From Planctomycetaceae bacterium (GTDB lineage: Bacteria; Planctomycetota; Planctomycetia; Pirellulales; Pirellulaceae): DNA of 21,427 nt. The notes under the pieces were generated by a model, which saw only the letters and a program-made list of their open reading frames with translations, was not told where the DNA came from and searched no databases. Positions 1-14,944 of the stretch are shown here, piece after piece. The position numbers and the translations under genes were made by a program. The first letter of the stretch is position 1. Each line of letters begins with the position of its first letter. The DNA lies in assembly GCA_002708345.1 (NCBI GenBank), contig PANG01000102.1:1-21427 (forward strand), written 5' to 3'.

Positions 1-1014
1 AAGAAGAAACCCCCCCGCCGAGTCTGCCAGGGATGGGTCAAGCCCTGGGACCTGCCCACCAATGGCGAAATACGAGAGCAGCTGCTCTCCTTCTCCCGCA
101 CGCCCATGCAGACCCAGCCGGACGACCAGCTGCAGGTCATGCGCATCACCGCCCTGGCCCTGATGCAGAGGCTCAGCGCTTTCCGGCCCCGCCTGGTGGG
201 AAGCGTGCTGGCCGGACAGGTCCGGCAAGGTTCCGATATCAACCTGCACCTGTTCGCCGCCAGCCTCGAGGCAATTACCTCGATCCTGGACGAGGACCTG
301 GCCAGCTACGACGTGGATCAAAAGACCATTCACAAGGAGGGCCAGGCACGGCACTACGTCCACGTCCATCTCCAGGGCACCTTCCCCACGAAACTGACCG
401 TCTACCCTCATAACGTCGCCAACGTTACACTCACCTGCCCGATCACCGGCGGCCCCATGCAGCATGCCAGCATCGCGGAACTGGAACTGCTGATCGAAAG
501 AGAATACCCCGAGCTCGACCTGGAAGAGCAGCTCGCGGACCTGGACGACGCACCCGACCGCTTCGCCCTCTACCTGGCCCTGCTCCTGCCCCTAGAAAAT
601 GTCCGCCAGAAGCCCTCGCTGCATCCAGAGGGCGATGCGCTTTACCACAGCCTGCAGGTCTTCCAGCTGGCGAGCCAGGAGCGGCCCTACGACGAGGAGT
701 TCCTCACCGCCGCACTCCTGCATGACCTGGGCAAGGCAATCGACCCGGACGATCCTCTGGCTGCCGCGATGGAGGCGCTGGAGGGATTCATCACCGAACG
801 GACCACCTGGCTGATCGAGAACCTGCCCGACGCCCACCGCCTGGCCGAGGGAACAATCGGCAGCCGCCATCGCAAGCGGCTCGCCGCGGACGAAAGCTAC
901 GAGGAACTGGTGCTGCTGGCCGAGTGTGACCGTAACGGACGCCAGCCGGGAGCGGAAGCACCAGAGCTGGAAGAAGCACTCGATCAGTTAAGAGAGCTGG
1001 ATCAGCAAACCTAG
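1..1014 (+). CDS. HD-domain protein with degenerate nucleotidyltransferase-like N-terminus (5' partial)
   Basis: The reading frame is open from the first base of the window, so the true start lies upstream; the first ATG inside is at 106. The visible 337 residues start with a basic stretch (KKKPPRR). They continue with a nucleotidyltransferase-like segment (G67-S68 followed by G-S-D-I-N at 77-81) and then an HD phosphohydrolase-like region with H216, H241-D242 and a later D310 in ECDRNGR. The order recalls tRNA nucleotidyltransferases and related NTase-HD proteins, but the second carboxylate of the D-x-D motif is Asn81, so the N-terminal half may not be catalytic. HD domains usually hydrolyse phosphoesters with metal ions; the substrate cannot be told. 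It converges on the BMC operon, and its TAG stop shares the CTAG at 1011-1014 with the stop of the dehydrogenase. The frame and HD motif are clear; the function is open. Confidence 0.8.
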   Translation, partial: KKKPPRRVCQGWVKPWDLPTNGEIREQLLSFSRTPMQTQPDDQLQVMRITALALMQRLSAFRPRLVGSVLAGQVRQGSDINLHLFAASLEAITSILDEDLASYDVDQKTIHKEGQARHYVHVHLQGTFPTKLTVYPHNVANVTLTCPITGGPMQHASIAELELLIEREYPELDLEEQLADLDDAPDRFALYLALLLPLENVRQKPSLHPEGDALYHSLQVFQLASQERPYDEEFLTAALLHDLGKAIDPDDPLAAAMEALEGFITERTTWLIENLPDAHRLAEGTIGSRHRKRLAADESYEELVLLAECDRNGRQPGAEAPELEEALDQLRELDQQT

Positions 1015-1958
1015 CCGCCACTGGCCACCCGAGCCAGCACATCGGTAAGCGTCTGCCGCAGCACGTTCCCACTGTTGCGAATCCCCTGCACTTCCTTCGG
1101 CCAGAGCTCGATCTCCAGCCGGTCCACCACCCCACAGCGTCCCATCACGGTGGGCACCGAAAGGGAGACGTCCCGGATCCCGTAGCAGCCATCCTGCACA
1201 CTCGAGACCGGCAGCACCTGCTGCTTGTCCAGGGCGATCGATTCGATCACGTCGCGGATGGCGATGCCGACGGCAAACCCAGCCCCACCCTTCTTGCTGA
1301 TCACCTCGGCACCACTTCCACGGGTGCGGGCGAAAAGGTCGTTGGACAGGTTCGGCGTCCAGTTCGGATGCTGCTCAAGCGGCAAGCCAGCAAAGGTGGC
1401 ACTGGACCAGATCGGTACCATGCTCTCGCCATGCTCGCCCAGGATCAGTGCCGAGAGCTGCGTCGGCGGGATCTGGAGGTGCTGGGCAATCAGGCTGCGA
1501 AAACGGATCGTATCAAGCTGCGTTCCCAGCCCGATCACCTGCGTGGCGGGCAGATCGAGCCGGTCCTTGGCCAGGTAAGTAAGAATATCGACCGGGTTGG
1601 AGACCACGAACACGATCGCCGAGGACTTGGGATTCGCCTGCTGGACCTGGTCCAGGATAGAGACAAACAGGTCAGTGTTCCGGTTGATCAGGTCCAGGCG
1701 GCTTTCGTCAGGCCCACGCCGCAAGCCAGCGGTGATGCAGATCACATCACTGTCGGCAATATGCTCGTAACCACCCGCCACGATCCGCTGGTCCGCGGTG
1801 CTCGGCCCACCGTGCAGCAGGTCCAGGGCATGCCCCTCGGCCGTCTCCAGATTCAGATCCAAAAGCGCGATCTCGCCAACCACGCCGCCACACTGCAGGG
1901 CAAACCCGGCGCTCGATCCAACCAATCCCCCGCCACCGATAATACTGACTTTAAACAT
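1011..1958 (-). CDS. L-lactate/malate dehydrogenase family protein, last gene of the BMC operon
   Basis: A 315-residue NAD-dependent 2-hydroxyacid dehydrogenase of the LDH/MDH family, of normal length. Visible features are the N-terminal Rossmann glycine motif (IIGGGGLVG, 6-14), D34 at the end of strand 2 (favours NAD over NADP), N121 in VVSNPVDIL, D149 and R152 in the LDTIRFR segment, and catalytic H176 in GEHGES. The substrate loop reads AGLRRGPDESR (77-87), with R87 as the conserved substrate-contacting Arg. The residue aligning with the discriminating position 102 is Arg81, as in malate dehydrogenases, not the Gln of lactate dehydrogenases. In PVM operons this gene is normally annotated lactate dehydrogenase and proposed to act on product lactate or in NAD recycling. 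No extra terminal helix is visible, so lumen targeting is not supported. A strong GAGGAG ribosome site lies 5 bases before ATG. It is the last gene of the operon. Confidence 0.93.
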   Translation of the reverse strand: MFKVSIIGGGGLVGSSAGFALQCGGVVGEIALLDLNLETAEGHALDLLHGGPSTADQRIVAGGYEHIADSDVICITAGLRRGPDESRLDLINRNTDLFVSILDQVQQANPKSSAIVFVVSNPVDILTYLAKDRLDLPATQVIGLGTQLDTIRFRSLIAQHLQIPPTQLSALILGEHGESMVPIWSSATFAGLPLEQHPNWTPNLSNDLFARTRGSGAEVISKKGGAGFAVGIAIRDVIESIALDKQQVLPVSSVQDGCYGIRDVSLSVPTVMGRCGVVDRLEIELWPKEVQGIRNSGNVLRQTLTDVLARVASGG

Positions 1959-2004: not shown

Positions 2005-2886
2005 TCAGGCAACATCCTGGCTAACCAGGGCCTGCATCACGCGATCGGTAATCATTCGTACCAGATCCTCCTCGGACCCGGTCGCCGTGCTGGCCGCCGT
2101 ACTGGTTGGGCAATTCGCCCCCTCGCTCATCACCGGCGGCGGTTCAAAGGCCCGCTGCTCGACACCTGCCTCTTCCCAGGTATCGCGAAAAATGGAGTTC
2201 GCACAGACGTCACATTCCTTGTAGTCGCTGGTATTTCGCGGGTCGCCAAATCCCCACTGCTGTTTCAGATCCAGAAGTTCGCGTTCCTTGTCCTCGCTAA
2301 AGTAGTGAATTTTCCCCAGGCTCTTGGCCAGCATCAGGATCCGGCAGTAGGCGTCCAGGATCTCGGTCCACCAGAAGGCCCGTTCGACCGACTCGCCATA
2401 ACTGACGGTTCCGTGGTTCGCCAGGATGATCACGTTGGTGTCCTTGACGAAGGGGATGATCGTATCGGCAAAAGCCTGCCCGCCGGGCGTCTCGTAACGT
2501 GTGATCGGCACGTCCCCCAGGAAAACCTCAACCTCCGGAAGCACGCACTGCGGGATCGGTTCCCGGGCCACGGCAAAGGCGGTGGCATGTGGTGGGTGAC
2601 AGTGCACCACGCTCCTCAGATCCGGCCGCTGGCGGTAGATCTCCAGGTGCAACAGCGCCTCACTCGAACGCTTCTTGTTACCGGAGATCTGCTTGCCCGT
2701 GCCGTCGATCGTGGAGATGTCCTCGGGCGTGAGAAAGCCCTTCGAATGCATCGTCGGCGTGCAAAGAAACTCGTTATCGCTGACCTTGACGGTGATATTT
2801 CCGTCATTGGCCGCCACGAATCCCTTGTCGTAGATTCGTCGGCCGATCTCACAGATTTCCTGCTTGAGTTTGTGTGCGTTATTCAT
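2005..2886 (-). CDS. Class II aldolase (L-fuculose/L-rhamnulose-1-phosphate aldolase type) with C-terminal encapsulation peptide
   Basis: A 293-residue class II aldolase. Zinc ligands and the catalytic acid are visible: E76 in SSEALLHLEIY, H95 and H97 in VVHCHPPHATAF, and H158 in ANHGT, matching the FucA layout. Known FucA reaction: L-fuculose-1-phosphate to DHAP plus L-lactaldehyde; PVM aldolases are thought also to accept L-rhamnulose-1-phosphate. It is about 80 residues longer than E. coli FucA (215). The extra C-terminus contains a CxxC pair (C225, C228), a Ser/Thr/Ala-rich linker (about 255-270) and a final amphipathic helix (about 271-289, pattern EEDLVRMITDRVMQAL) typical of BMC encapsulation peptides, so it is probably a lumen enzyme supplying lactaldehyde inside the shell. 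The gene follows a BMC-P gene after 26 bases. Its ribosome site is weak. Aldolase family is certain; the exact sugar phosphate is inferred from the operon. Confidence 0.93.
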   Translation of the reverse strand: MNNAHKLKQEICEIGRRIYDKGFVAANDGNITVKVSDNEFLCTPTMHSKGFLTPEDISTIDGTGKQISGNKKRSSEALLHLEIYRQRPDLRSVVHCHPPHATAFAVAREPIPQCVLPEVEVFLGDVPITRYETPGGQAFADTIIPFVKDTNVIILANHGTVSYGESVERAFWWTEILDAYCRILMLAKSLGKIHYFSEDKERELLDLKQQWGFGDPRNTSDYKECDVCANSIFRDTWEEAGVEQRAFEPPPVMSEGANCPTSTAASTATGSEEDLVRMITDRVMQALVSQDVA

Positions 2887-2912: not shown

Positions 2913-3200
2913 CTACCTTTTTTCCAAGTCGACGCTATCCAGTAGCGCCGCACTGTAGGCGTCCACCGGTTTAAGTTGTGGTTTGAATGGCTCAGCTGCT
3001 TCGCCTCCCTCGCTGACTGCAATCAGTCCGCCGTTGCCGGCTCCCAGTTCATCCCAGACCACCAGGGTTTCGGTCTCTGGAAGCTTGTCACTCTCCAGGT
3101 CCTCGGCCATCAACGGCACTGCCAGTCGCAGCGATGCCGACTCGAAGCTCGGCAGGCAGCGATTGAGCGTGACCGATCCCAGTACCCGTGCGATTCTCAT
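2913..3200 (-). CDS. BMC-P pentameric shell vertex protein (EutN/CcmL family)
   Basis: A 95-residue EutN/CcmL-domain protein. Pentamers of this family cap the vertices of microcompartment shells. It starts with the typical strand MRIARVLGSVTLN, has the conserved hydrophobic VPL segment near residue 28, and the family turn GAGNGGLIAVSEGGEAA (about 53-69). In the other two BMC-P copies this turn reads GAGTGETVMITSDGQSA and GAGVGDYVLITMGSSA. This copy is the most divergent of the three in the operon, with VAVPLMAEDLES in place of the LLIVQPYEV-type strand and a C-terminal tail to residue 95. The stop codon of the upstream 84-aa gene lies within the Shine-Dalgarno region (TAGGGAGAAAG), suggesting translational coupling. 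Family assignment is firm; its position in the shell relative to the other two pentamers is unknown. Confidence 0.92.
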   Translation of the reverse strand: MRIARVLGSVTLNRCLPSFESASLRLAVPLMAEDLESDKLPETETLVVWDELGAGNGGLIAVSEGGEAAEPFKPQLKPVDAYSAALLDSVDLEKR

Positions 3201-3219: not shown

Positions 3220-3474
3220 CTAGCCCGCCAGCGGTCGGCGAGTCAGGGTAATCTCATTTTCCTTGAGGTAGTCGACGACCAGCGGCGTAACCACCGCTCG
3301 TTCACAGACCACCAGCTGACAGGTGTTCTCAAGTTTTCCTTCCAGGAAGTCCATCGTGATCACCCGACCGGGGATCACGGTCTCGCTGCTGGATGCTGCT
3401 GGCTGAAGCTCGTTCTCGGCCAGCAGCCGCCGGACCACTTCATCGACAATCGCTTGTATATCCTGTTTCTGCAT
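3220..3474 (-). CDS. Unknown 84-aa BMC-operon protein with N-terminal encapsulation-peptide-like helix
   Basis: I do not recognise an established function. The ATG at 3474 is chosen because it sits 11 bases after AAGGA and just past the upstream stop; a TTG at 3498 would add eight residues but overlap the BMC-P gene by 20 bases. The 84-aa protein has three parts. First is an amphipathic helix (residues 1-19, MQKQDIQAIVDEVVRRLLA) resembling encapsulation peptides. Next is a short polar Ala/Ser linker (about 20-35). Last is a compact segment with the pattern VIT...L...L....L-V...AVVTPLVVDYLKENEITL. That segment resembles, from memory, the N-terminal leader of EutT adenosyltransferases (VIT/FIT...LTPSARELL...LRI), but no EutT catalytic region follows. 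It is embedded between two shell genes, so a cargo, adaptor or assembly role in the BMC is plausible. The gene is real by context and coupling; the role is inferred. Confidence 0.85.
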   Translation of the reverse strand: MQKQDIQAIVDEVVRRLLAENELQPAASSSETVIPGRVITMDFLEGKLENTCQLVVCERAVVTPLVVDYLKENEITLTRRPLAG

Positions 3475-3478
3475 GGTT

Positions 3479-3745
3479 CTATTCGTCCTTAATTCCAATC
3501 ACTGTCCAACGCACCGGGGTGATATCGGTGTCGAGTATCGTCCGGGCACTCTGCCCGTCACTGGTGATCATCACCGTCTCCCCGGTCCCTGCGCCAACCC
3601 GATCGACCGCGATTTGCGGATAGCCATCGGGCGTGGTGCCGTCAACCTCGTAAGGCTGCACGATCAACAACGTGCTACCAACCATCGATGGATGCTTGAT
3701 CGTCGTGGTCGCAGTTCCAAGTACTCGTCCCAGTAACATCTTCAT
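3479..3745 (-). CDS. BMC-P pentameric shell vertex protein (EutN/CcmL family)
   Basis: An 88-residue EutN/CcmL-domain protein, close to the minimal family length. It shows the N-terminal strand LLGRVLGTATTTIKHPSMVG, the strand STLLIVQPYEV (about 24-34), and the signature AVDRVGAGTGETVMITSDGQSAR (about 46-68) followed by ITPVRWTVIGIKD. It should form pentamers that close shell vertices. The start is well supported: the ALDH stop TAG and the ribosome site overlap in TAGGAGAA directly before ATG, so translation is probably coupled to the aldehyde dehydrogenase. Only four bases separate its stop from the start of the 84-aa gene. It is one of three paralogous BMC-P proteins in the operon, a multiplicity typical of PVM microcompartments. 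Confidence 0.95.
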   Translation of the reverse strand: MKMLLGRVLGTATTTIKHPSMVGSTLLIVQPYEVDGTTPDGYPQIAVDRVGAGTGETVMITSDGQSARTILDTDITPVRWTVIGIKDE

Positions 3746-5255: not shown

Positions 5256-5579
5256 TCAGTCGCCTGTATTCTCATCCCGGTTATAAACGCAGTTCTGCTC
5301 GACATGCACGTTGTCAACGATTCCCACAACCACGGTGTCGATCGGTAACTCGCGGGTATCTTCAGTCATGCGGGCACTGGACCCCATGGTGATCAGCACG
5401 TAGTCGCCCACCCCGGCTCCGAGCGTGTCCACCGCTATAAACGTCCGCCCGGTGGTTGCCAGGCTTTTCCGCTTTTTCGCTTCCACACGGTAAGGTTCCA
5501 CGACGAGCAACTTGTATCCCACCATCGATTCCACTTTCTGCGTGGAGACCATCGATCCGGTCACTTGTGCAACAAACAT
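5256..5579 (-). CDS. BMC-P pentameric shell vertex protein (EutN/CcmL family), long form
   Basis: A 107-residue EutN/CcmL-domain protein. It has the N-terminal strand MFVAQVTGSMVSTQKVESMVG, the strand YKLLVVEPYRVE (about 22-33), a charged insert KKRKSLATTGR (about 35-45), and the signature AVDTLGAGVGDYVLITMGSSAR (about 49-70) followed by LPIDTVVVGIVD. After the fold there is a polar tail (about 91-107) ending in NRDENTGD, which makes it longer than the 88-aa copy. It should cap shell vertices. Only three bases separate its start from the upstream acetate-kinase stop, and 47 bases separate its stop from the ALDH start. The family call is firm. Confidence 0.95.
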   Translation of the reverse strand: MFVAQVTGSMVSTQKVESMVGYKLLVVEPYRVEAKKRKSLATTGRTFIAVDTLGAGVGDYVLITMGSSARMTEDTRELPIDTVVVGIVDNVHVEQNCVYNRDENTGD

Positions 5580-5582
5580 CGT

Positions 5583-6767
5583 TTATCCTTCCAGTAGTTG
5601 GCATACCTGCCTGGCCACTATCAATTCCTCGTTGGTGGGGATCACCCAGACCTTGGTCCGGCTCCCCGCATCACTGATACATGATTCCCCGTCGGCTGCC
5701 CCGTTGGCATTTTCATCGAGCTGGATTCCCAGCTCCTCGAGATCCTGGCAGATATTCGCCCGGACCTGCTGCTGGTTTTCTCCGATCCCCCCGGTAAAGA
5801 CGATCACGTCCGCACCTCCCAGTTCGACCAGCAGCGAACCGAGGTAGCGGCGAATGTCGGTGGTAAAGACCTCCAGTGCCAGCCCTGCACGGGAATTTCC
5901 CTCGTCAGCTGCCTTCTGGATATCCCGCAGGTCCCCGCTGACTCCGCTGATCCCCAGCAGTCCGCCGCGGCATGCCAGGTCCTGGAGCACCTCGTCAAGC
6001 GATTTCCCCGTGGCCTCCATGATCAACGGCAGGTTATAGGGATCCATGTCACCCACGCGGTTATTGTGTGGAATACCGCTCTGGGGACTCATCCCCATCG
6101 AGGTAGCCACGCTTTTTCCGTTCCGGATGGCACACAGACTGCTACTCCCACCCAGGTGGCAGGAGATGATCCGCAGGTCATCGCGACCGAGCAACTCGGC
6201 GGTGCGGTTGGCAATATAGCGGTGACTGGCACCATGGAATCCCCAACGACGAATTGGCAGCTGGTCTGCCCACTCGTGGGGAATCGCGTAATGCCGGGAT
6301 CGTTCCGGAATGGTCTCGTGAAAGCCAGTTTCGAAAGCTGCCACCAGCGGGATCCCGGGCAGACGCTCATGAAGCTGCCTCATCGCCGCGATATAGGGGG
6401 GGTTGTGAGCCGGTGCAACCTGGCTCATTTCCTCCATCGCCGAGAGCAGTTCCTCGTCCACCCGTTTGACACCGCTTGTGCGGCCGCCGTGAACCGCCTT
6501 GAAGCCGATAGCAGCCACCTCGGATGCATCCGACAGGCAACCCTGGTCCGGGTCGGTCAGCTGCGTCAGGCACTGCTCAACCGCAGCAGCGTGGTCCGGC
6601 ACCTGGAGCGCAAGCTCGCGCTGCTGTCCGTCAATCTCGACGACAGCGCGACTTTCCGCTTCACCGATCCGCTCGATCCCACCGACGGCAAGTTGCCTTT
6701 CGGTGGACATATCAAGCAGCCGGTACTTGAAGCTTGTCGAACCCAGGTTGGCTACCAGAACTTTCAT
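5583..6767 (-). CDS. ackA: Acetate kinase family protein of the BMC operon, with altered active-site residues
   Basis: A 394-residue acetate/propionate kinase homologue of the ASKHA fold and of normal family length. It would take acyl-phosphate from PduL (expected lactyl-phosphate) plus ADP to carboxylate plus ATP. Conserved features are the N-terminal phosphate motif N7-x-G-S10-T-S12-x-K14, VHGG (92-95), H121 in [15 protein letters not shown] with H178, CHLGG with H204, R237 in [17 protein letters not shown] (324-331) and PTNEEL (377-382). Three positions that are nearly invariant in characterised acetate kinases are changed. The FDTAFH aspartate is E146, the GHRVVHGG arginine is K90, and the HLGNG asparagine is G207. 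The enzyme may therefore be specialised for another acyl-phosphate or be slower. No terminal targeting helix is visible. It sits between BMC-H and BMC-P genes. The family call is sure; substrate and activity are inferred. Confidence 0.92.
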
Positions 6768-6795: not shown

Positions 6796-7065
6796 CTAGG
6801 CCAGGTAGGCTTCCATCAGGCCCTCAGCGGGTCGCGGAATCACATGGCTGCTGACCAGCTCGCCGATCTGGGACGCTGCCGAACCGCCGGCCTCGACCGC
6901 AGCTCGCACGCTGCCGACATCGCCACTAACAATCGTGGTAACCAGCCCGCCACCGATATCGACGCGCTTGATTACTTTTACATTCGCTGCCTTTGCCATG
7001 GCGTCGGTCGCTTCGACCAGCCCGACAAGGCCTTTCGTTTCAATCAGACCAATTGCACTATCCAT
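6796..7065 (-). CDS. BMC-H hexameric shell protein (short form)
   Basis: An 89-residue single BMC domain protein (PduA/EutM/CcmK type). It has the signature AIGLIETKGLVGLVEATDAMAKAANV (about 4-29) and the expected fold through VSGDVGSVRAAVEAG (about 46-60) to SSHVIPRP (about 72-79). These proteins form the hexagonal facet tiles of the shell. The pore-loop motif preceding LVTT is D-I-G-G-G (about 36-40), unlike the K-V-G-A-G of the neighbouring BMC-H, so the two hexamers probably have pores of different character. The ribosome site AAAAGGAAGAAACC precedes ATG. It lies 54 bases downstream of the other BMC-H and 28 bases upstream of the kinase. It is the minimal BMC-H of the pair and lacks a C-terminal extension. 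Confidence 0.96.
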   Translation of the reverse strand: MDSAIGLIETKGLVGLVEATDAMAKAANVKVIKRVDIGGGLVTTIVSGDVGSVRAAVEAGGSAASQIGELVSSHVIPRPAEGLMEAYLA

Positions 7066-7119: not shown

Positions 7120-7425
7120 CTATTTCTTGGGCTCCGCCTTGACGATCTTCGCTGACAGGACACATCCCAGGTCCTCGTGGGGACGCGGGATGACCTGCAC
7201 ACTCAACACCTCGCCAACTCGTCCAGCTGCATTGGCACCTGCATCGGTGGCTGCTTTCACTGCCGCGACATCGCCTGTCACGAAACTGGAAACCATGCCT
7301 GCACCGACCTTGTCCCAACCCAGGAAGTCGACGTTGGCAGCTTTCATCATTGCGTCGGATGCCTCGATCAGGGCCACAAAGCCCTTCGTCTCGATCATTC
7401 CGAGCGCTTCCATTGCCTTTGCCAT
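7120..7425 (-). CDS. BMC-H hexameric shell protein (long form)
   Basis: A 101-residue BMC-H protein. The start is taken at the ATG at 7425, because AAGGAGAG lies seven bases upstream and the protein then begins [16 protein letters not shown], as in PduA/EutM. An upstream in-frame start at 7476 would add 17 residues with no family match. The domain contains [17 protein letters not shown] (about 18-34), the pore loop [10 protein letters not shown] (about 38-47), [18 protein letters not shown] (about 50-67) and [12 protein letters not shown] (about 73-84). A short extension with a Lys-rich end (KIVKAEPKK) follows. It should be a main facet protein. It is the first shell gene of the operon and has the best ribosome site of the shell genes, consistent with high output. 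Confidence 0.96.
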
Positions 7426-7460
7426 TTTCAGACTCTCCTTCAAACAAAACACAGGGGAGA

Positions 7461-7473
7461 CGGCACCATGCCG
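7461..7473 (-). other. Small inverted repeat between pduL and the first BMC-H gene
   Basis: On the minus strand the bases read CGGCA-TGG-TGCCG, a perfect five-base stem with a three-base loop, in the 62-base gap between pduL and the BMC-H gene. A short T-rich stretch (TGTTTTGTTT) follows some ten bases later, just before the Shine-Dalgarno. It may stabilise the downstream shell mRNA or be a weak attenuator; the stem is too short to be sure. Confidence 0.3.
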
Positions 7474-7487
7474 CATCTACCCAAACA

Positions 7488-8189
7488 CTACTCGTGGCAA
7501 CCGCAGTCACCGTCCGGGCGGAGAAGTTCCATCCGGGTCGCTGCCTGCAGGTGGCACGCATTCGCCTCATCTGTATCGATATGGACCTCGAGCTTGCTCG
7601 TATCATCTGCCCGGACAAGCACATCCTCCATCACCATCGTGCAGTCGGGGGATTCGATCCTTAGTTTCATCAGGTCGCCACCGGTCACACCAAAATGCTG
7701 GCAATCCTGGTGGTTCATGTGTACATGCCGGGCCGCACGGATCAGGCCCTGGTCCAGGTGGACAACTCCGGCGGGACCCACCAGCACACAACCCGGCGTT
7801 CCATCGACATTGCCGCTGTGGCGTATTGGGACGTCCAGGCCAATGGATATGGCGTCGGTCAGTGACAGCTCAACCTGGCTAAAGGCGCGAGTCGGGCCCA
7901 GGACCCGGACATTGGGGAGCATCCGGCGTCGTGGCCCCACCAGCATGAGAGTCTCCTCGGCGGCAAAAAAGCCGTCCTGGTAAAGCGATCGCATCTCGGT
8001 CAGTGTCGCACCGGGACCGAAAAGCCGTTCCACGTGTTCATCGCACAGGTGAATATGCCGGGCCGAGACGTTTACCCGTAATTCCGGGGCGGCGCCTGGG
8101 GCCACCGGTGCCGGGATGGACTGGCCGCTGACGTATTGCCGGACAATACGCTCGACCATCGTTCGATCCAGTGTGGAAGAAGTTATCAT
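7488..8189 (-). CDS. pduL: PduL-type phosphotransacylase with N-terminal encapsulation peptide
   Basis: A 233-residue PduL-family (PF06130) phosphate acyltransferase, unrelated to Pta. It moves the acyl group from CoA to phosphate, regenerating CoA inside the shell for the aldehyde dehydrogenase. The two family repeats are visible: [19 protein letters not shown] with H45 and H47, and [13 protein letters not shown] with H155 and H157. The C-terminal [12 protein letters not shown] has H203. These histidines match the zinc ligands of PduL. Residues 1-20 ([20 protein letters not shown]) form an amphipathic helix followed by a Pro/Ala linker, as expected for an encapsulation peptide. The ATG at 8189 is preferred: it starts at this helix and lies 17 bases past the regulator stop. 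A TTG at 8264 would add 25 residues and overlap deoR. The protein ends in an unusual Cys pair (DCGCHE). Confidence 0.95.
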
Positions 8190-8206
8190 CGTTTTCTGTT
8201 TCCCTT

Positions 8207-8971
8207 TTATTCGGTCGGGGCTGTTACCAGCCGGATCCCTGCCTGTTTCACTCGCTCTTGCCAACTTTCCGGTAACTGGTCGTCGGCGACCAGCGTGTCG
8301 ACTTCTCCAAGCGGACAGAGTTGTGCCAGGCTGGAACGGTCAAATTTTGTACTGTCTGCCAGGATCACCACCTCGTCGGCCGATGCCATCATCGCCCGTT
8401 CGGTTTCCACCAGTAGCAGGTTACTGTTGTAAAATCCCTTCTCGTTAATTCCGGCCACGCTCAGCAAGGCACGCTCCACGTTGAGGCTTTCAATTGCATC
8501 GCGGGCATAGGGCCCGATGCAGACGCCTGTCTTGCTATGCACGTAACCGCCGATAAATACCAGGTCCGCGGCGTCGCTTGTCATAAACAGCATGGCAACC
8601 GGAAAGGAATTCGTAACGACCTGCAGCGGCCGACCCACCAGTTGCTGTGCCAGTTCATAGGTTGTGCTCCCCCCGTCAAGTAGAACCGTCTCCCCGTCCT
8701 GGATCAGGCCTGCTGCGGCTCGAGCGATCTGTTTCTTTTGCTCCCATCTCTGGTTTTGCCGCCGGTCAAAATGAGCCGACTTGGGTGAGGGTCCGGTGTA
8801 GAAAACGCCCCCGTGGGTGCGCCTGGCAACACCAGATTCCTCAAGGTAATCTAGGTCGCGCCGTACGGTTGATTCGGAAACTTTTACCTCTTTAGCTAGA
8901 TTCAATAATGAGGCAAAGCCACTTAACCGGATTATTTCCACTAACCGGTCACGTCGGGCCTGGGTCTGCAT
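8207..8971 (-). CDS. DeoR-family transcriptional regulator of the BMC operon
   Basis: A 254-residue DeoR-type regulator. The N-terminal winged helix-turn-helix spans about residues 1-57, with [39 protein letters not shown] as the recognisable core (split here only for description: helix pair 20-37, recognition helix around STVRRDLD). The C-terminal sugar-phosphate sensor domain (DeoRC) shows [24 protein letters not shown], the FIGGYV strand and a late [14 protein letters not shown]. DeoR proteins usually repress and are released by a phosphorylated sugar intermediate; here a fucose/rhamnose pathway phosphate is a reasonable guess. The ATG at 8971 is chosen over TTG at 9010 because GAGG lies five bases upstream. 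It is the first gene of the operon, 17 bases before pduL, and probably autoregulates through the inverted repeat at 9017-9040. Confidence 0.94.
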
Positions 8972-9016
8972 AACCACCTCACGGTCAGCCGATAGCTGAA
9001 GAACGGACAATCAAAC

Positions 9017-9139: not shown

Positions 9140-9778
9140 TCATTCAGGTTGGATAGCAACCTGGCCCTGCTCGATCGATACCTGCCCGGCCGCAATCCAG
9201 CCGATAACCTCGGGATATGCCTCGCATTCCACGTCAAAAACGCGGGCCGCCAGGCTCTCGGCCGTATCCTCCGGTTTCACAACCACCTGCCGCTGCAGGA
9301 TGATCGGACCGTGATCGTACTGGTTATCAACGAAATGGATTGTGCAACCGCTCGTTGTCTCGCCCGCGTCTATCACTGCCTCGTGCACATGGTGCCCATA
9401 GAATCCCTTCCCGCAATAGGCAGGAATCAGGCTGGGATGAATATTGATCACACGGTTCTCGAAATCCGCCGGGATCAACAGGTGCTTCAGGAAGCCTCCC
9501 ATCACGACCAGCTCGACCTCCGCGTCCCTGCAGGGCGTGAATACCTGTTCGGTGAACTGGTCGAGCGACCCACTCTCCGCCCGTGCGACGACCTCGCTTT
9601 TGACCCCGGCCTCCCGGGCATAGGCCAGTCCACCGGCCTCCGCGGTGCTCGACACCACCAGCACGACACGTGCATGGAGCTTTCCCTTGCCGATGACTTC
9701 CAGGATATTCCGCAGCGTCGTACCCCCTCCTGAGATCAGGACAGCGATCCGAAGCGGTTCCCCCTGGGCCCGGCTCAC
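9140..9778 (-). CDS. purN: Phosphoribosylglycinamide formyltransferase
   Basis: A 212-residue GAR transformylase, which uses 10-formyl-tetrahydrofolate for the third step of purine synthesis. The catalytic triad of the family is visible: N112 and H114 in [12 protein letters not shown], and D155 in [13 protein letters not shown]. The N-terminal phosphate loop reads [13 protein letters not shown] (14-26) instead of the common SGNGSNLQ, and the segment after the folate motif ([11 protein letters not shown]) is also somewhat divergent, but the fold order and length are normal. It starts at GTG, and the bases GTGA at 9775-9778 serve as both the purN start and the ileS stop, so translation is probably coupled to ileS. 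It ends 168 bases before the BMC regulator, and no clear terminator hairpin follows, so some read-through into the BMC operon is possible. Confidence 0.94.
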
Positions 9779-12700
9779 GATGTCGATTCCTCCACCCGGG
9801 CCACGTAAATCCGGGTTACCACCTCGTTGACCTCCCGCTCAACCGGTTCCACTCCCTCGAGCGATCCGGAAAGTAATTCCACCGCAAGCGTCTCTCCGCG
9901 GATCATCTCTCCAAACTGCTCAACCGCCTGCTTAACCTCCGCATCCTCTGTCTCCACCGCCACCTGGATGCGGTCAGTAAATTCACAATCAAGTTCCTTC
10001 CTGCGGTCCTGGACCAGCCGCACCAGGTCCCGTGCCAGTCCCTCCCGAACCAGTTCCTCGGTCAGTTCCGTGGCAAGGATGATCACCGAGTGATCCCCCT
10101 GCGCCGCAGCCCAGCCCTCCCTGGCCTGCAACCGGACCTGAATATCCTCCTCATCCAGCCGGACCGTTTCACCATCCACGTCCAGTTCCACCGCTCCGGC
10201 ACTGGTCAACTGTTCCAGCAATTCACTCCCATCGGCCTCAGCGAGCAGTTTTTTCAATCCCGGAAGCAGTTTTCCCAGTCGCGGGCCGAGGCGGGGAAAA
10301 TTCGGTTGCACCTCGTATTCGATATACTCATCCGCCTGCTGAATGTAGTTAATCTGCTTGACATTCACTTCCTGTTTAAGCAGTTCATCGTGCTCCTGGA
10401 GCCACGCCTGGTGTGTGCTCTCCGCCAACACCACTTCCATCGCCGAGAGTGGCTGCCGCACTTTCAGGCGGGCTTCCATGCGGGCGCTTCTTCCCAGCGA
10501 GGCAATCTCTCTGAGCAGCGCCATTTGTTCGGAAAGTTCCCCATCCACCACTGCTTCATCCCTCGAGGGGTAATCACAGAGGTGAACACTCAGGGTCGCT
10601 CTCTCCCCATACACCCCGGCCAGCGTCTGCCAGAGCAGCTCGGCCAGGTAGGGAGTGAAGGGAGCAATCAGGCGTGCAGTCACCAGCAGGCATTCATAGA
10701 GAGTCCAGTAGGCATCCTGTTTTTCCGTCGAATCGACCTGGTCACTCCAGAATCGTTCCCGACTTCGACGCACGTACCAGTTGCTCAGTGAATCGACGAA
10801 ACGGTTCAGTGTCGACGCCGCGGTGTAATTGTCATAGGCATCCATGCTCTCCACGACCTTTCCGGTCGCCTTGTGCAGTTCACCCAGGATCCAGCGATCC
10901 AGCTCCCCCCTCTCCGCCACCGGTCGATAGCCCCCGGCCCCGGAGAGCGTTTCCGAATCGAGCTGTCCGACTTCTCCCTCAAGCTGCCCTTCCGGCTCAA
11001 ATCCATCGATATTGGCGTAGATCCCCAGGAAGCTAAAGACATTCCAGAGCCGCAGGAGAAATTCCGGAATACTCTCCTTGATCGATTGTTCCTTGTAGCG
11101 GATCGGGGTCCAGGCCGCCTGGTTGGCAAAAAAGTACCAGCGCAGGGCGTCGGCCCCGTAACCTTCAAAGATCTCGCCGGGATCCCGGTAATTCCGTTTG
11201 CTCTTGGACATCTTCTGGCCGTCCTCACCGAGCATCAGTCCCAGCACAACACAATTGCGGAAGGGGTGTGGGAACTCGCAGCTCTGATCCCCCTCGTTTT
11301 CCTCTCCAAACAGCATCGTGCTGATTGCCAGCTGGCTATAGAACCAGCCCCGTGTCTGGTCGATCGCCTCGCTGATAAAGTCCGCGGGAAACTGTTCCCT
11401 GAACCGATCCGCTCCCGTATGCGGGTAACCCCACTGGGCAAATGGCATCGCCCCGGAATCATACCAGCAGTCAATCACCTCGCTGACCCGCTGCATCCGG
11501 CCCTGATCATCAAACGGCGACTGGTAGGTGACCGCGTCGATATAGGGCTTGTGTACCTTGAGGTCTTCCACCAGGTCCGGGTTCGCTTCCCGTGCCTGAT
11601 CCCAGACCTCGGTCCCCTGCACCCCCGGTTTATCCAGCAGTTCCTGGTAACTTCCAATCGCTTCCTTCTCACCGGTCCTGTCACACACCCAGATTGGCAG
11701 CGGCGTTCCCCAGTAACGTTCCCTCGAGAGTGCCCAGTCGACATTACTCGCCAGGAAGTTCCCAAACCGTCCATCCCGGATATGTTCCGGCAACCAGTTC
11801 ACCTGCTGGTTATTGGCCTGCATCTGGTCCTTGAACTGGGTGGTCCGGATAAACCAGCTTCGCCGCGGATACTGGATCAGCGGATCCTCCTCGGCCCGCC
11901 AGCAGAAGGGGTATTCGTGCAGGACCTGGTCCAGGTGGTAGAGCGTCCCCTCCTCGCGCATCCGCCTGGAAATATCCTTGTCCGCTTCCTTTACCCAGCG
12001 GCCGGTATAATCGGGTGCCTCGCTGGTGAACGTGCCATCCGGCGCGACTGCGCAGATCAGCTCCGGCCCCTCTCCCTCGACAAACCGTTGCTGTTCTTCT
12101 AGCAGCACATCGTAGTCCACCTCGCCGAAGGCAGGTGCCTGGTGCACCACGCCGGTGCCACTCTCGGTCGTCACGAACGATGCCCGCACCACTAGCCAGG
12201 CCTTCACCTGGCTTCCCCCGTCCCGCAGCTCGCCCTGTTCCTCACCCGACGTCGCCCAGTAGTAATCAAACGGCGGCTGGTACCGCTTTCCAACCAGTTC
12301 CTCTCCCTTCAGGGTCCCCACCACCTCAAGCGGCCGCTTCACCTTCTCGGCCACCGACTCAACCAGGTCCGAGGCAAGCACGATCTCTCCCCCCAGTTCC
12401 TCGTCCTTCACGATCGAGTACTCCAGTTCCGGGTGGACCGCCGCGAACTGGTTACTCGGTAAAGTCCAGGGGGTGGTCGTCCAGACCAGCAGGGAGCGGC
12501 CGGGATCTTCCAGTAGCGGCAAAAGCACATAGACGCTTGGATCCGCCACCTCGCGGTACCCCTGCCCCACCTCGCCCGCACTCAGTGCCGTTCCTCCCTG
12601 TGCCCACCACCAGACGATCTTGTGTCCCTGGTATAGCAGGTCTCTTTCAAAGAGGTTCTTCAGTGACCACCAGACGCTTTCCACATACGACTGGTGGTAA

Positions 12701-13149
12701 GTAACATAGGCGTCTTCCAGGTGAATCCAGAAACCAAGTCGTTCGGTCAGCTGTTCCCACTCCTGCATGTAGCGCCAGACGCTCTCCTGGCAGCGATGGA
12801 TAAATGCCTCCACCCCGTACTCTTCAATTTCCTCCTTGCTGTGGATACCGATTTCCTTGCAGACTTCCACTTCCACCGGAAGCCCATGGGTATCCCAGCC
12901 CCCCTTCCGCTCACAGAGAAATCCCTGCATCGTCCGGTAGCGGGGAAAAAGATCCTTGATTGCCCTTGTCAGGCAGTGCCCTGGGTGAGGCATGCCGTTG
13001 GCCGTGGGTGGGCCCTCGAAGAAGACAAACCGGCTAGCGTCCTTGCGCTGCTCAAGCGAGCGGTCATAGATCTTCTCGTCCCGCCAGAATTGCAGAACCT
13101 GCAATTCGAGTTCAGGGAAGCTAGGGTTACTGGGAACCGGCTTAAACAT
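9775..13149 (-). CDS. ileS: Isoleucyl-tRNA synthetase, eukaryote-like (type 2) form
   Basis: A 1124-residue class I aminoacyl-tRNA synthetase that charges tRNA-Ile. The HIGH motif appears as H55-P-G-H58 within [16 protein letters not shown], followed by [13 protein letters not shown]. The KMSKS motif is at 646-650 in [14 protein letters not shown]. The NYRDP context after KMSKS, the length, and the lack of the C-terminal Cys zinc finger of E. coli-type enzymes place it with the eukaryote-like type 2 IleS, a form often insensitive to mupirocin (known for the type, not shown here). A connective editing domain lies between (for example [15 protein letters not shown] and [17 protein letters not shown]). 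The start ATG at 13149 has AGGAT a few bases upstream and fits the family N-terminus. The gene is 41 bases after the acidic-protein gene and overlaps purN by four bases. Confidence 0.97.
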
Positions 13150-13190: not shown

Positions 13191-13616
13191 TTATTTATCG
13201 CCGTCTTTTTTGTCTCCATCCTTTTTCCCGTCGCCGTCGCCATCACCGTCATCGTCATCGTCCCCATCTCCATCCCCATCTCCATCTCCATCACCAGCGA
13301 ATTCCGAATCATCCAGTTCGGGTTCCTCACCGTCCGCTTCGCCCCCTCCTTTGTCCTTTTTCTTCTCGCCCTCTTTCTTGCCGACGGTCGACGCGACTCC
13401 GCTACTGAAATCATCCCCGATGACCTCGTATTCATCCTCGGATTCTTCCTCAAAGTCATCGTCGAAATCGTCATCAAAGTCGACATCATCGAAGTCATCA
13501 AAACCGCCCTCGTCTTCATCCGCCTGTTCCGCTGGATTCACATTGACCACCCTGTCCCCCAGGGATTCCTCGCTGGAAATCCCGGTATCGATTGCAAGAG
13601 AACTCGCCAGTGTCAT
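13191..13616 (-). CDS. Small Asp-rich acidic repeat protein, function unknown
   Basis: A 141-residue, extremely acidic, low-complexity protein. Residues 1-30 are ordinary ([20 protein letters not shown]...). Residues 40-62 are an Asp/Phe/Glu tract ([19 protein letters not shown]), and 80-90 is a Lys-rich patch. Residues 108-130 are an almost pure Gly-Asp alternation, and the end is a repeated [12 protein letters not shown] good ribosome site (GAGGAC, six bases before ATG) supports translation. Acidic DDFDDDF-type proteins are common in planctomycete genomes, often without known role; charge shielding, metal or protein binding are guesses. There is no signal peptide or membrane segment, so it is probably cytosolic. 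It lies 41 bases upstream of ileS on the same strand. The coding of the tail rides on a trinucleotide/hexanucleotide microsatellite that can change length. Confidence 0.75.
13194..13295 (-). repeat. Microsatellite-like repeat encoding the Gly-Asp and KKDGD tail
   Basis: The plus strand here is a run of ccatct/ccgtcatcg-type units (period three and six) that codes on the minus strand for alternating Gly and Asp, then Lys-Lys-Asp-Gly-Asp repeats. All units keep frame. Such runs are prone to slippage, and units of three preserve the reading frame. Confidence 0.8.
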
Positions 13617-13747: not shown

Positions 13748-14944
13748 TCAGGTATGGTAATCCGAGTTGAAAGTAACGTAGTCCACCGTCAGGTCGCTGG
13801 TCCAGAAACTGGCTCTTCCCGGTCCGTCACCAAGGATCACGAGCACGTGAACCTCGCGTGAGTGGCGCATCGTTTCGGCCGCCTGCTCGGCATCAAAAGC
13901 AACCGGGCTGCCCTCCTTAAAGAGCGTGATCCCGTTAAGCTCGAGTCCCAGCTGTGTCGTCTCCAGCGGCACACCCGCATAGCCCACGGCCGAGATAATT
14001 CGGCCCCAGTTCGGGTCACACCCGGCAATCCCGGTTTTCACCAGGTTACTGTTGGCTACGGTGCGGGCGACTAGCCTGGCACCCTGGTCATCCCCCGCCC
14101 CGAGCACCTCCACCTTGACCAAGTGGCTCGATCCCTCTCCATCATCAGGAATCATTTTTGCCAGCTGCAGGCATCCCTCACTGAGCTCCTTCCGGAAAAG
14201 CTGCAAATCATCCCCCACCAGCGGGTTCCCTCCGGCCGCCCCGTTGGCAAAGAGCAGAACCGTGTCATTGGTGCTGGTATGTCCTTCCACGCTGATACAG
14301 TTAAAACTCTCATCGACCGCATCCTTCAGTGCCTGCTGGGCATCGTCACCCCCGATCGCCGCATCGGTAAGAAAAACAGCCAGCATGGTTGCCATGTTCG
14401 GGCCGATCATGGCAGCTCCCTTGGCCATCCCCGCCAGTTGACACGAACCCCCGCCGCAGTTCATCTCTGCGGTCATTGTCTTGGGTCCGTTATCGGTAGT
14501 GAGAATTCCCCGCGAGGCCGCGTCGAACGCATCGGCACCGGCAGCCAATTCCGAAGCGGCCCGATCGATCCCGCCCAGGATCTTCTCCATCGGCAGAAGC
14601 TGACCAATAATCCCGGTCGAAAGCACCAGGCCCTGGTCCTCCTCGACACCCACCGCCCTCGCAGCAGCAGCGACCATCGCCTCCGCATCGCTCATTCCCT
14701 GCTTACCGGTACAAGCATTGGCATTACCCGAGTTCACCACGACCATCCGCCCCCGCGTCGTCGGCGTTCGCCCGCGACAGAGAACAACCGGGGCCGCAGC
14801 CACCAGGTTCTGCGTGTAGACACCGGCAACCGTCGCATCCCGGTCACTGGTAATCAGCGAAAGGTCCCTGGTCCCCGCAACGCTCTTGACGCCGCTGGCG
14901 ACTCCCGCGTACTGGAAGCCGAGTGGCAAAGCTGGCTCATTCAT
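13748..14944 (-). CDS. argJ: Bifunctional ornithine acetyltransferase/N-acetylglutamate synthase
   Basis: A 398-residue ArgJ. It transfers the acetyl group from N-acetylornithine to glutamate in the cyclic arginine pathway and may also make N-acetylglutamate from acetyl-CoA. The precursor cleaves itself between A185 and T186 within KGAAMIGPNMATMLAVFLTDA (the family motif, here at 175-195), making T186 the nucleophile of the beta chain. The oxyanion T110-G111 lies in LSTGIIGQ. Also typical are VNSGNANACTG (70-80), VEGHTSTNDT, GCDPNWGRI and the C-terminal DLTVDYVTFNSDYHT, so the gene is complete. Its ATG overlaps the argC stop in ATGA (14941-14944), so the two are translationally coupled. Whether it is bifunctional or only transfers acetyl groups cannot be told from sequence alone. 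Confidence 0.97.
   Translation of the reverse strand: MNEPALPLGFQYAGVASGVKSVAGTRDLSLITSDRDATVAGVYTQNLVAAAPVVLCRGRTPTTRGRMVVVNSGNANACTGKQGMSDAEAMVAAAARAVGVEEDQGLVLSTGIIGQLLPMEKILGGIDRAASELAAGADAFDAASRGILTTDNGPKTMTAEMNCGGGSCQLAGMAKGAAMIGPNMATMLAVFLTDAAIGGDDAQQALKDAVDESFNCISVEGHTSTNDTVLLFANGAAGGNPLVGDDLQLFRKELSEGCLQLAKMIPDDGEGSSHLVKVEVLGAGDDQGARLVARTVANSNLVKTGIAGCDPNWGRIISAVGYAGVPLETTQLGLELNGITLFKEGSPVAFDAEQAAETMRHSREVHVLVILGDGPGRASFWTSDLTVDYVTFNSDYHT

Follow-up and report, generated by a model that had tools for sequence, protein, structure and literature searches.

The stretch of DNA analysed here (the window; 21,427 nt, contig PANG01000102.1 of the Planctomycetaceae bacterium assembly GCA_002708345.1) contains a minus-strand bacterial microcompartment (BMC) operon, in which a gene for a protein of 84 residues is situated between two genes of BMC-P vertex proteins. 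The operon order is DeoR, PduL, two BMC-H shell proteins, AckA, BMC-P, aldehyde dehydrogenase (AldDH), BMC-P, the 84-residue protein, BMC-P, class II aldolase and a lactate/malate-type dehydrogenase (Table 1). Typed by gene content, following PMC4207490 and PMC8217296, this is a PVM (fucose/rhamnose-type) microcompartment. The system is of a known kind; what is new is a minimal variant of what we read as a shell–cargo linker, and a pointer to a docking module shared by several protein families.

The gene starts with ATG. The gap between the stop of the upstream BMC-P gene and its start is 4 nt, and that between its end and the start of the downstream BMC-P gene is 19 nt; hence, there is no space for a hidden C-terminal part. 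Both neighbours belong to the EutN_CcmL/BMC-P family (PF03319), confirming the position between two vertex-protein genes given in the initial annotation. The start and the length are supported by 15 full-length relatives (84–86 residues), both ends of which agree with those of the window protein to within two residues (alignment A1).

Table 1. Features of the 84-residue gene and of the surrounding operon (positions in the window)
Feature	Positions	Strand	Basis
84-residue mini-linker gene (putative)	3220..3474	-	open reading frame (ORF); start backed by same-length relatives
Encapsulation-peptide-like amphipathic helix, residues 4–22	3409..3465	-	AF2 model; profile alignment to PduM; profile matches to AldDH/PduL N-termini
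Flexible linker, residues 23–30	3385..3408	-	pLDDT <50 at 23–27
Shared module (EutT leader/EutQ N-terminus/PduM C-terminus), residues 31–80, beta-alpha-beta-alpha-beta	3235..3384	-	AF2 model; hhalign; alignment A5
AAGGAC, possible ribosome-binding site, within the end of the upstream BMC-P gene	3485..3490	-	by eye
Upstream BMC-P (vertex) gene	3479..3745	-	PF03319, E 1.1e-23
Downstream BMC-P (vertex) gene	2913..3200	-	PF03319, E 7.5e-16
CoA-acylating-type aldehyde dehydrogenase with N-terminal helix	3751..5208	-	PRK15398, E 1.1e-188
Class II aldolase (module-bearing enzyme in Verrucomicrobiota)	2005..2886	-	PF00596, E 5.6e-49
Third BMC-P gene	5256..5579	-	PF03319, E 2.6e-27
Acetate kinase	5583..6767	-	PF00871, E 2.4e-112
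BMC-H shell protein	6796..7065	-	PF00936, one domain, E 7.1e-27
BMC-H shell protein	7120..7476	-	PF00936, one domain, E 1.5e-26
PduL phosphotransacylase with N-terminal helix	7488..8189	-	PF06130, E 3.4e-69; start by eye
DeoR-family regulator	8207..9010	-	PF00455, E 2.3e-46; PF08220, E 2.5e-14
Lactate/malate-type dehydrogenase	1011..1958	-	PF00056 and PF02866

The mechanical ORF of PduL (7488–8264, minus strand) begins at a TTG at 8264, inside DeoR; a start at the ATG of position 8189 suits a targeting helix better. Outside the operon, a 141-residue ORF at 13191–13616 (minus strand) encodes an extremely acidic, low-complexity protein with Asp/Gly/Glu repeats, located between genes that by eye look IleRS-like (9775–13149) and ArgJ-like (13748–14944).

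Architecture of the protein and kinship of its parts

A phmmer search found 16 proteins, one of them a 52-residue fragment and the other 15 the relatives mentioned above, with 64–96% identity and 24 invariant columns. A profile search yielded 28 proteins, and a broader profile (A2, built from 17 of the 29 sequences then available, that is, the window protein and the 28 matches) matched 1030 of the 7994 candidates scored, with E-values up to 10. Among the best 120 of these 1030 matches 118 are 81–126 residues long, although the candidates were length-limited, so that this is no measure of the proportion of short and long forms. None of the best 120 has a Pfam domain, and the sole source name among them is "hypothetical protein". 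The window protein itself has no Pfam match either; thus, a confident match to an unrelated domain, which would have spoken against the initial annotation, did not occur.

The AF2 model of the protein has mean pLDDT 76 and pTM 0.50; the underlying 122-sequence alignment A3 took in 121 of the 127 found proteins (P0016, P0018, P0028, P0086, P0088 and P0103 were left out). The model consists of a helix at residues 4–22, a disordered stretch at 23–27, and a module with strands at 31–34, 53–57 and 76–80 and helices at 41–44 and 64–72 (block pLDDT 78–89), after which only four residues follow. A terminal amphipathic helix of 15–20 residues on a flexible linker is what characterizes an encapsulation peptide, and the front part of the protein has this form. 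In the long form from locus L001, described below, the module (residues 41–80) is predicted at block pLDDT 96–97. Comparison of the module with solved structures gave no confident match. In a sequence search against solved structures EutQ was covered at its cupin domain alone, EutT had no match, and PduM had a single one, to a DksA/TraR-type protein (E 0.038).

The kinship of the module emerges from sequence profiles. Sub-threshold NCBIfam matches of the family converge on the C-terminal ends of PduM and TIGR02536 and on the N-terminal ends of EutQ (matched by P0024 and P0025) and EutT (by L006). With hhalign, residues 30–84 align with residues 8–50 of a four-sequence EutT alignment (P 7e-6), and the module aligns with residues 3–46 of a three-sequence EutQ profile (P 1.3e-4) and with residues 136–163 of PduM (P 4.6e-4). 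Of 40 decoys, drawn from the same regions of E. coli, the best has P 0.035; the decoys are single sequences and the positives small alignments, which somewhat favours the latter. Two eut proteins represented by single sequences remain near the decoy level (P 0.021 and 0.0073). The value for two short module proteins, short_Cet and short_Ace (P 3.7e-7), is flattered, as both had been chosen by a family-profile search before the comparison. The likeness to the EutT leader proposed initially is thus borne out.

When the family profile was run on 610 ORFs of eut, pdu and cut regions, the first nine ranks (E no higher than 0.056) went to operon proteins: PduM and EutT from two species each, Enterococcus EutQ, two short proteins, a PduL-type fusion and a TIGR02536-type protein. 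EutQ and EutT of K-12 ranked lower (E 1.8 and 9.7), the former aligning weakly with the module over its residues 2–37. In the module-only alignment A5 (27 rows) there is a common pattern, whose sole nearly invariant pair is T-P; in the window protein the conserved turn reads T63-P64-x-x-x-D68. No Pfam model covers the module in the proteins tested, except PDU_like, which spans the whole of PduM.

According to PMC12487888, residues 9–41 of Salmonella EutQ associate with the shell and residues 62–99 with cargo peptides, residues 1–99 target a reporter, and helices H1 and H2 form the shell side. Both EutQ stretches aligned to the module (2–37 and 3–46) cover H1 and H2, and for this reason we infer, by transfer of function, that docking on the shell would be the task of the module.

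The helix, in turn, would join the enzyme core, since it resembles encapsulation peptides. The whole profile and PduM align from the first residue of each, over 32 positions (P 2e-4). The best decoys in this comparison are PduE (1–40), PduB (1–17 to 2–18), EutS and EutE (1–26), with P 0.0065–0.035. The N-terminus of PduE is a targeting or linking segment. Such a role has also been published for the N-termini of EutE (PMC12487888) and PduB (PMC9132943). A profile of the helix (family residues 1–24) was searched against 14,683 six-frame ORFs from the 68 loci fetched by the window's AldDH, and its top eight non-target matches were the N-termini of five AldDHs, from closely related loci, and three PduLs; an unlabelled ninth match ties with the eighth. 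The shortness of the segment keeps the E-values weak (0.05–3.6). Tests against shuffled sequences single out PduM, EutE, the window PduL (5.6 bits) and the C-terminus of an L136 protein (0/500 shuffles as high), but not the ends of the window AldDH and aldolase, PduD, PduP or EutQ; the helix profile matches neither the window AldDH N-terminus nor EutQ. Hence, the resemblance to targeting helices of AldDH and PduL, noted in the initial annotation, holds more weakly than that to EutT: the window PduL scores, and the AldDH half of the comparison rests on a looser amphipathic pattern, as the window AldDH gives no match.

Occurrence, neighbours and fused forms

The module is present in 61 of the 68 AldDH-anchored loci. 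These comprise 54 planctomycete-type loci with a homologue, five variant loci (L053–L056 and L058) with a module protein between AldDH and aldolase, L066 (Gemmatimonadaceae) with two module proteins, and L062 (Verrucomicrobiales) with the module on the aldolase. Six of the seven module-less loci are truncated by the end of their contig, at AldDH or BMC-P or shortly beyond. The opening residues of a long form can be seen in one of these, L042; in another, L040, the sequence stops 171 nt past BMC-P, and no long-form start is visible. In the PVM locus L048 no BMC-P, module or linker, or aldolase is seen in the 1.8 kb visible after AldDH (after position 10479). In a phylum sample, which overlaps in part with the 68 loci, the family occurs in 29 of 294 genomes, all 29 among the 94 with BMC-P (p = 1.4e-16), and 24 of the 29 loci have a BMC-P gene within about 1.5 kb. 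The gene is conserved in PVM loci, and the lack of conservation that would have told against the initial annotation was not observed. In the variant PVM-like loci L053–L056, L058 and L067 phmmer labels give a third BMC-H-like gene and no BMC-P; BMC-P may be encoded elsewhere or be too divergent.

The neighbourhood bears on the possibility that the module docks specifically on BMC-P pentamers, the linker marking vertices or aiding shell closure. BMC-P genes are found on both sides in 48 of 56 family matches and in 23 of the 29 phylum-sample loci; five further matches are preceded by BMC-P and followed by no labelled gene (L035 lies at a contig end; L038, L039, L043 and L044 do not), and one lies between BMC-P and aldolase. 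Moreover, pduM directly precedes a BMC-P gene in all three pdu loci fetched, an 88-residue module protein of Cetobacterium directly follows a BMC-P (EutN-type) gene, and 25 of 26 Verrucomicrobiota loci have BMC-P next to the aldolase that bears the module. However, gene neighbours need not encode binding partners, the reported partners of EutQ are EutM and EutL, and in Gemmatimonadota the genes of module-bearing DHDPS-type aldolases and 160-residue module proteins adjoin BMC-H genes, as do both matches in L066. We therefore consider vertex-specific docking improbable.

Most planctomycete versions carry an extra C-terminal pseudo-RpiB domain, missing in the window protein and a few other lineages. 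These long forms share the operon position, the helix and the module with the 84-residue protein and are its direct homologues (L059 and L061 were matched in the module alone), but have 103–175 more residues after the module, or 247 in L005. The long-form alignment A4 contains 32 of the 39 long forms with an ATG start, and P0088. An RpiB fold is predicted in the one long form modelled, and the catalytic motifs are missing from the PVM long forms. The RpiB domain (PF02502; motifs DHGG, GxGxG and HN..N) is absent from the 84-residue gene and was not detected elsewhere in the window (best E 4.7). In six other loci, all in genomes with BMC-P (L091, L092, L094, L095, L097 and L098), the same module is fused to a complete RpiB, unlike in the window protein, with all three motifs in 6/6 and PF02502 E-values of 6e-48 to 5.5e-52 in the four tested; L091, L092, L095 and L098 retain the helix region too, their matches starting at model position 3–7. 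Thus, the suggestion that the protein is a remnant of a larger enzyme is supported as ancestry, as in relatives the same N-terminal part is followed by a pseudo-RpiB or a complete RpiB domain.

If the protein were just a decaying, functionless leftover of such a fusion, the loss of catalytic motifs in the long forms and of the whole domain in the window would be natural. However, the length is kept across relatives at the identity and with the invariant columns reported above, short proteins prevail among the best 120 profile matches (within the length limit mentioned), and short forms require four changes on the AldDH tree (built without L066), of which supported branches force at least two. 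Constant length and repeated short forms are not expected of a decaying gene, and we regard decay as very improbable.

The module is also found on other enzymes. The module-only profile matched 26 of 194 Verrucomicrobiota genomes; 25 of the 26 are among the 37 with BMC-P, the other 12 of which have no match. The aldolase frame begins with the module, or has it close to its start, in 25 of the 26 loci; two or more BMC-P genes adjoin it, with AldDH on the far side in 23 (L111 and L120 have no AldDH in the stretch fetched). In all 25 loci the two nearest BMC-P matches are 4–139 nt apart; therefore, a separate linker gene is missing there. Matches to L062 and L053 occur by construction, as A5 contains both; L110 is the L062 genome, and the other 24 Verrucomicrobiota aldolases, as well as L054, L055, L056 and L058, are not in A5.

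In Gemmatimonadota 46 of 64 genomes were matched by the same profile, and 30 loci (L136–L165) were fetched and typed as DHDPS-type fusions (n = 16), RpiB fusions (n = 7) and proteins of about 160–175 residues (n = 7). BMC genes lie within about 1.5 kb in 25 loci; the other five, all RpiB fusions, have none in the stretch. The DHDPS-family aldolases, including that at L066:13283–14869, have an N-terminal module and are encoded beside BMC-H genes; such a fusion is probably the signature enzyme of a Gemmatimonadota compartment. The proteins of about 160–170 residues in L136, L148 and L160 begin with the module and have a Cys/His-rich middle, with a pattern like DHPD..xGC.TEEFGSGFVEPS.C..C, possibly a metal site; their C-terminus is encapsulation-peptide-like, standing out in L136 and at shuffle level in L148. 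L066:11435–11917 is the same gene as that of L136.

Further, the module is fused C-terminally to a PduL/EutD-type phosphotransacylase (L104:9771–10673; PF06130, E 3e-73) and adjoins an ACT domain in L096. Stand-alone module proteins of 88 and 89 residues are encoded at L105:11233–11499 and L104:10712–10978, their tails reading by eye as two helices; the former is from Cetobacterium, a Fusobacterium relative and itself Gram-negative, the latter from Gram-positive Acetoanaerobium. Gram-positive EutQ is reported to lack the first three helices (PMC12487888), and the stand-alone proteins may supply the missing EutQ N-terminus.

The fusions to aldolases could also mean that the protein solely organizes the core: the helix would bind encapsulation peptides and the module a cargo enzyme such as the aldolase, condensing the core with the shell never touched. 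The retention of PduM with the cargo upon shell separation (PMC9132943) agrees with this. At the same time, a module fused to an enzyme would have no need to bind that enzyme, and the EutQ deletion and binding data put the matching part on the shell. A role restricted to the core is thus unlikely, though somewhat less so than vertex-specific docking.

The proposed linker and known systems

We consider it fairly probable that the 84-residue protein is a minimal PVM shell–cargo linker descended from an RpiB-type fusion. Its N-terminal helix would join the enzyme core in the manner of the PduL and AldDH encapsulation peptides, and its C-terminal module, the same as on the shell side of EutQ and at the C-terminus of PduM, would dock on the inner face of the shell. 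It could have originated as a cargo fusion of helix, module and an RpiB-type isomerase, whose isomerase domain was first stripped of its catalytic motifs in PVM loci and later disappeared altogether from the window protein, so that just the two linking parts remain. Among the roles offered initially, that of an adaptor between cargo and shell is the best supported one, because EutQ binds the shell through this same module (PMC12487888); attachment to the vertices in particular is less likely, the reported EutQ partners being EutM and EutL.

More broadly, the module may be a general metabolosome shell-docking domain, unrecognised because it is short, and common to EutQ, EutT, PduM, the PduL-type enzyme, the RpiB isomerases of BMC loci, the aldolases of Verrucomicrobiota and Gemmatimonadota compartments, and the 84-residue protein as the smallest two-part form; the chances for and against this seem to us about even. 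If true, attachment to the shell would reside in a domain that can be transferred, and the same dock would have been gained by enzymes from different pathways. In the literature consulted, tethering of core to shell is best described for Salmonella Pdu and Eut, via proteins that are not connected with each other there. PduM does not occur in PMC12487888, and PMC4827028 describes the Pdu operon as apparently without an EutQ homologue. A module in common would explain the tethering in several compartment types at once, single out the likely PVM linker and predict which enzymes lie against the shell, and would offer engineering a natural tether of 84 residues.

Among the named families, the EutT leader matches the module best, although EutT has an adenosyltransferase domain (PF01923), which the 84-residue protein lacks. 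PduM, a proposed core–shell connector with a reported location between the core and PduB, a shell protein (PMC9132943), likewise has an N-terminal helix, a C-terminal module and a gene beside a BMC-P gene, but contains about 80 additional middle residues and matches PF15953; the window protein scores 11.7 bits against TIGR04493, below the cut-off of 50. The N-terminal domain of EutQ (residues 1–99) similarly combines the module, a flexible stretch and helices for the cargo side. However, its cargo helices H3 and H4 stand behind the module, are unmatched by the helix profile and are followed by a cupin domain (PF06249), whereas the 84-residue protein has its helix before the module and neither H3/H4 nor a cupin after it. 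With its parts arranged in the opposite order to those of EutQ, the protein would work like the EutQ N-terminus or a short PduM, while being a member of neither family.
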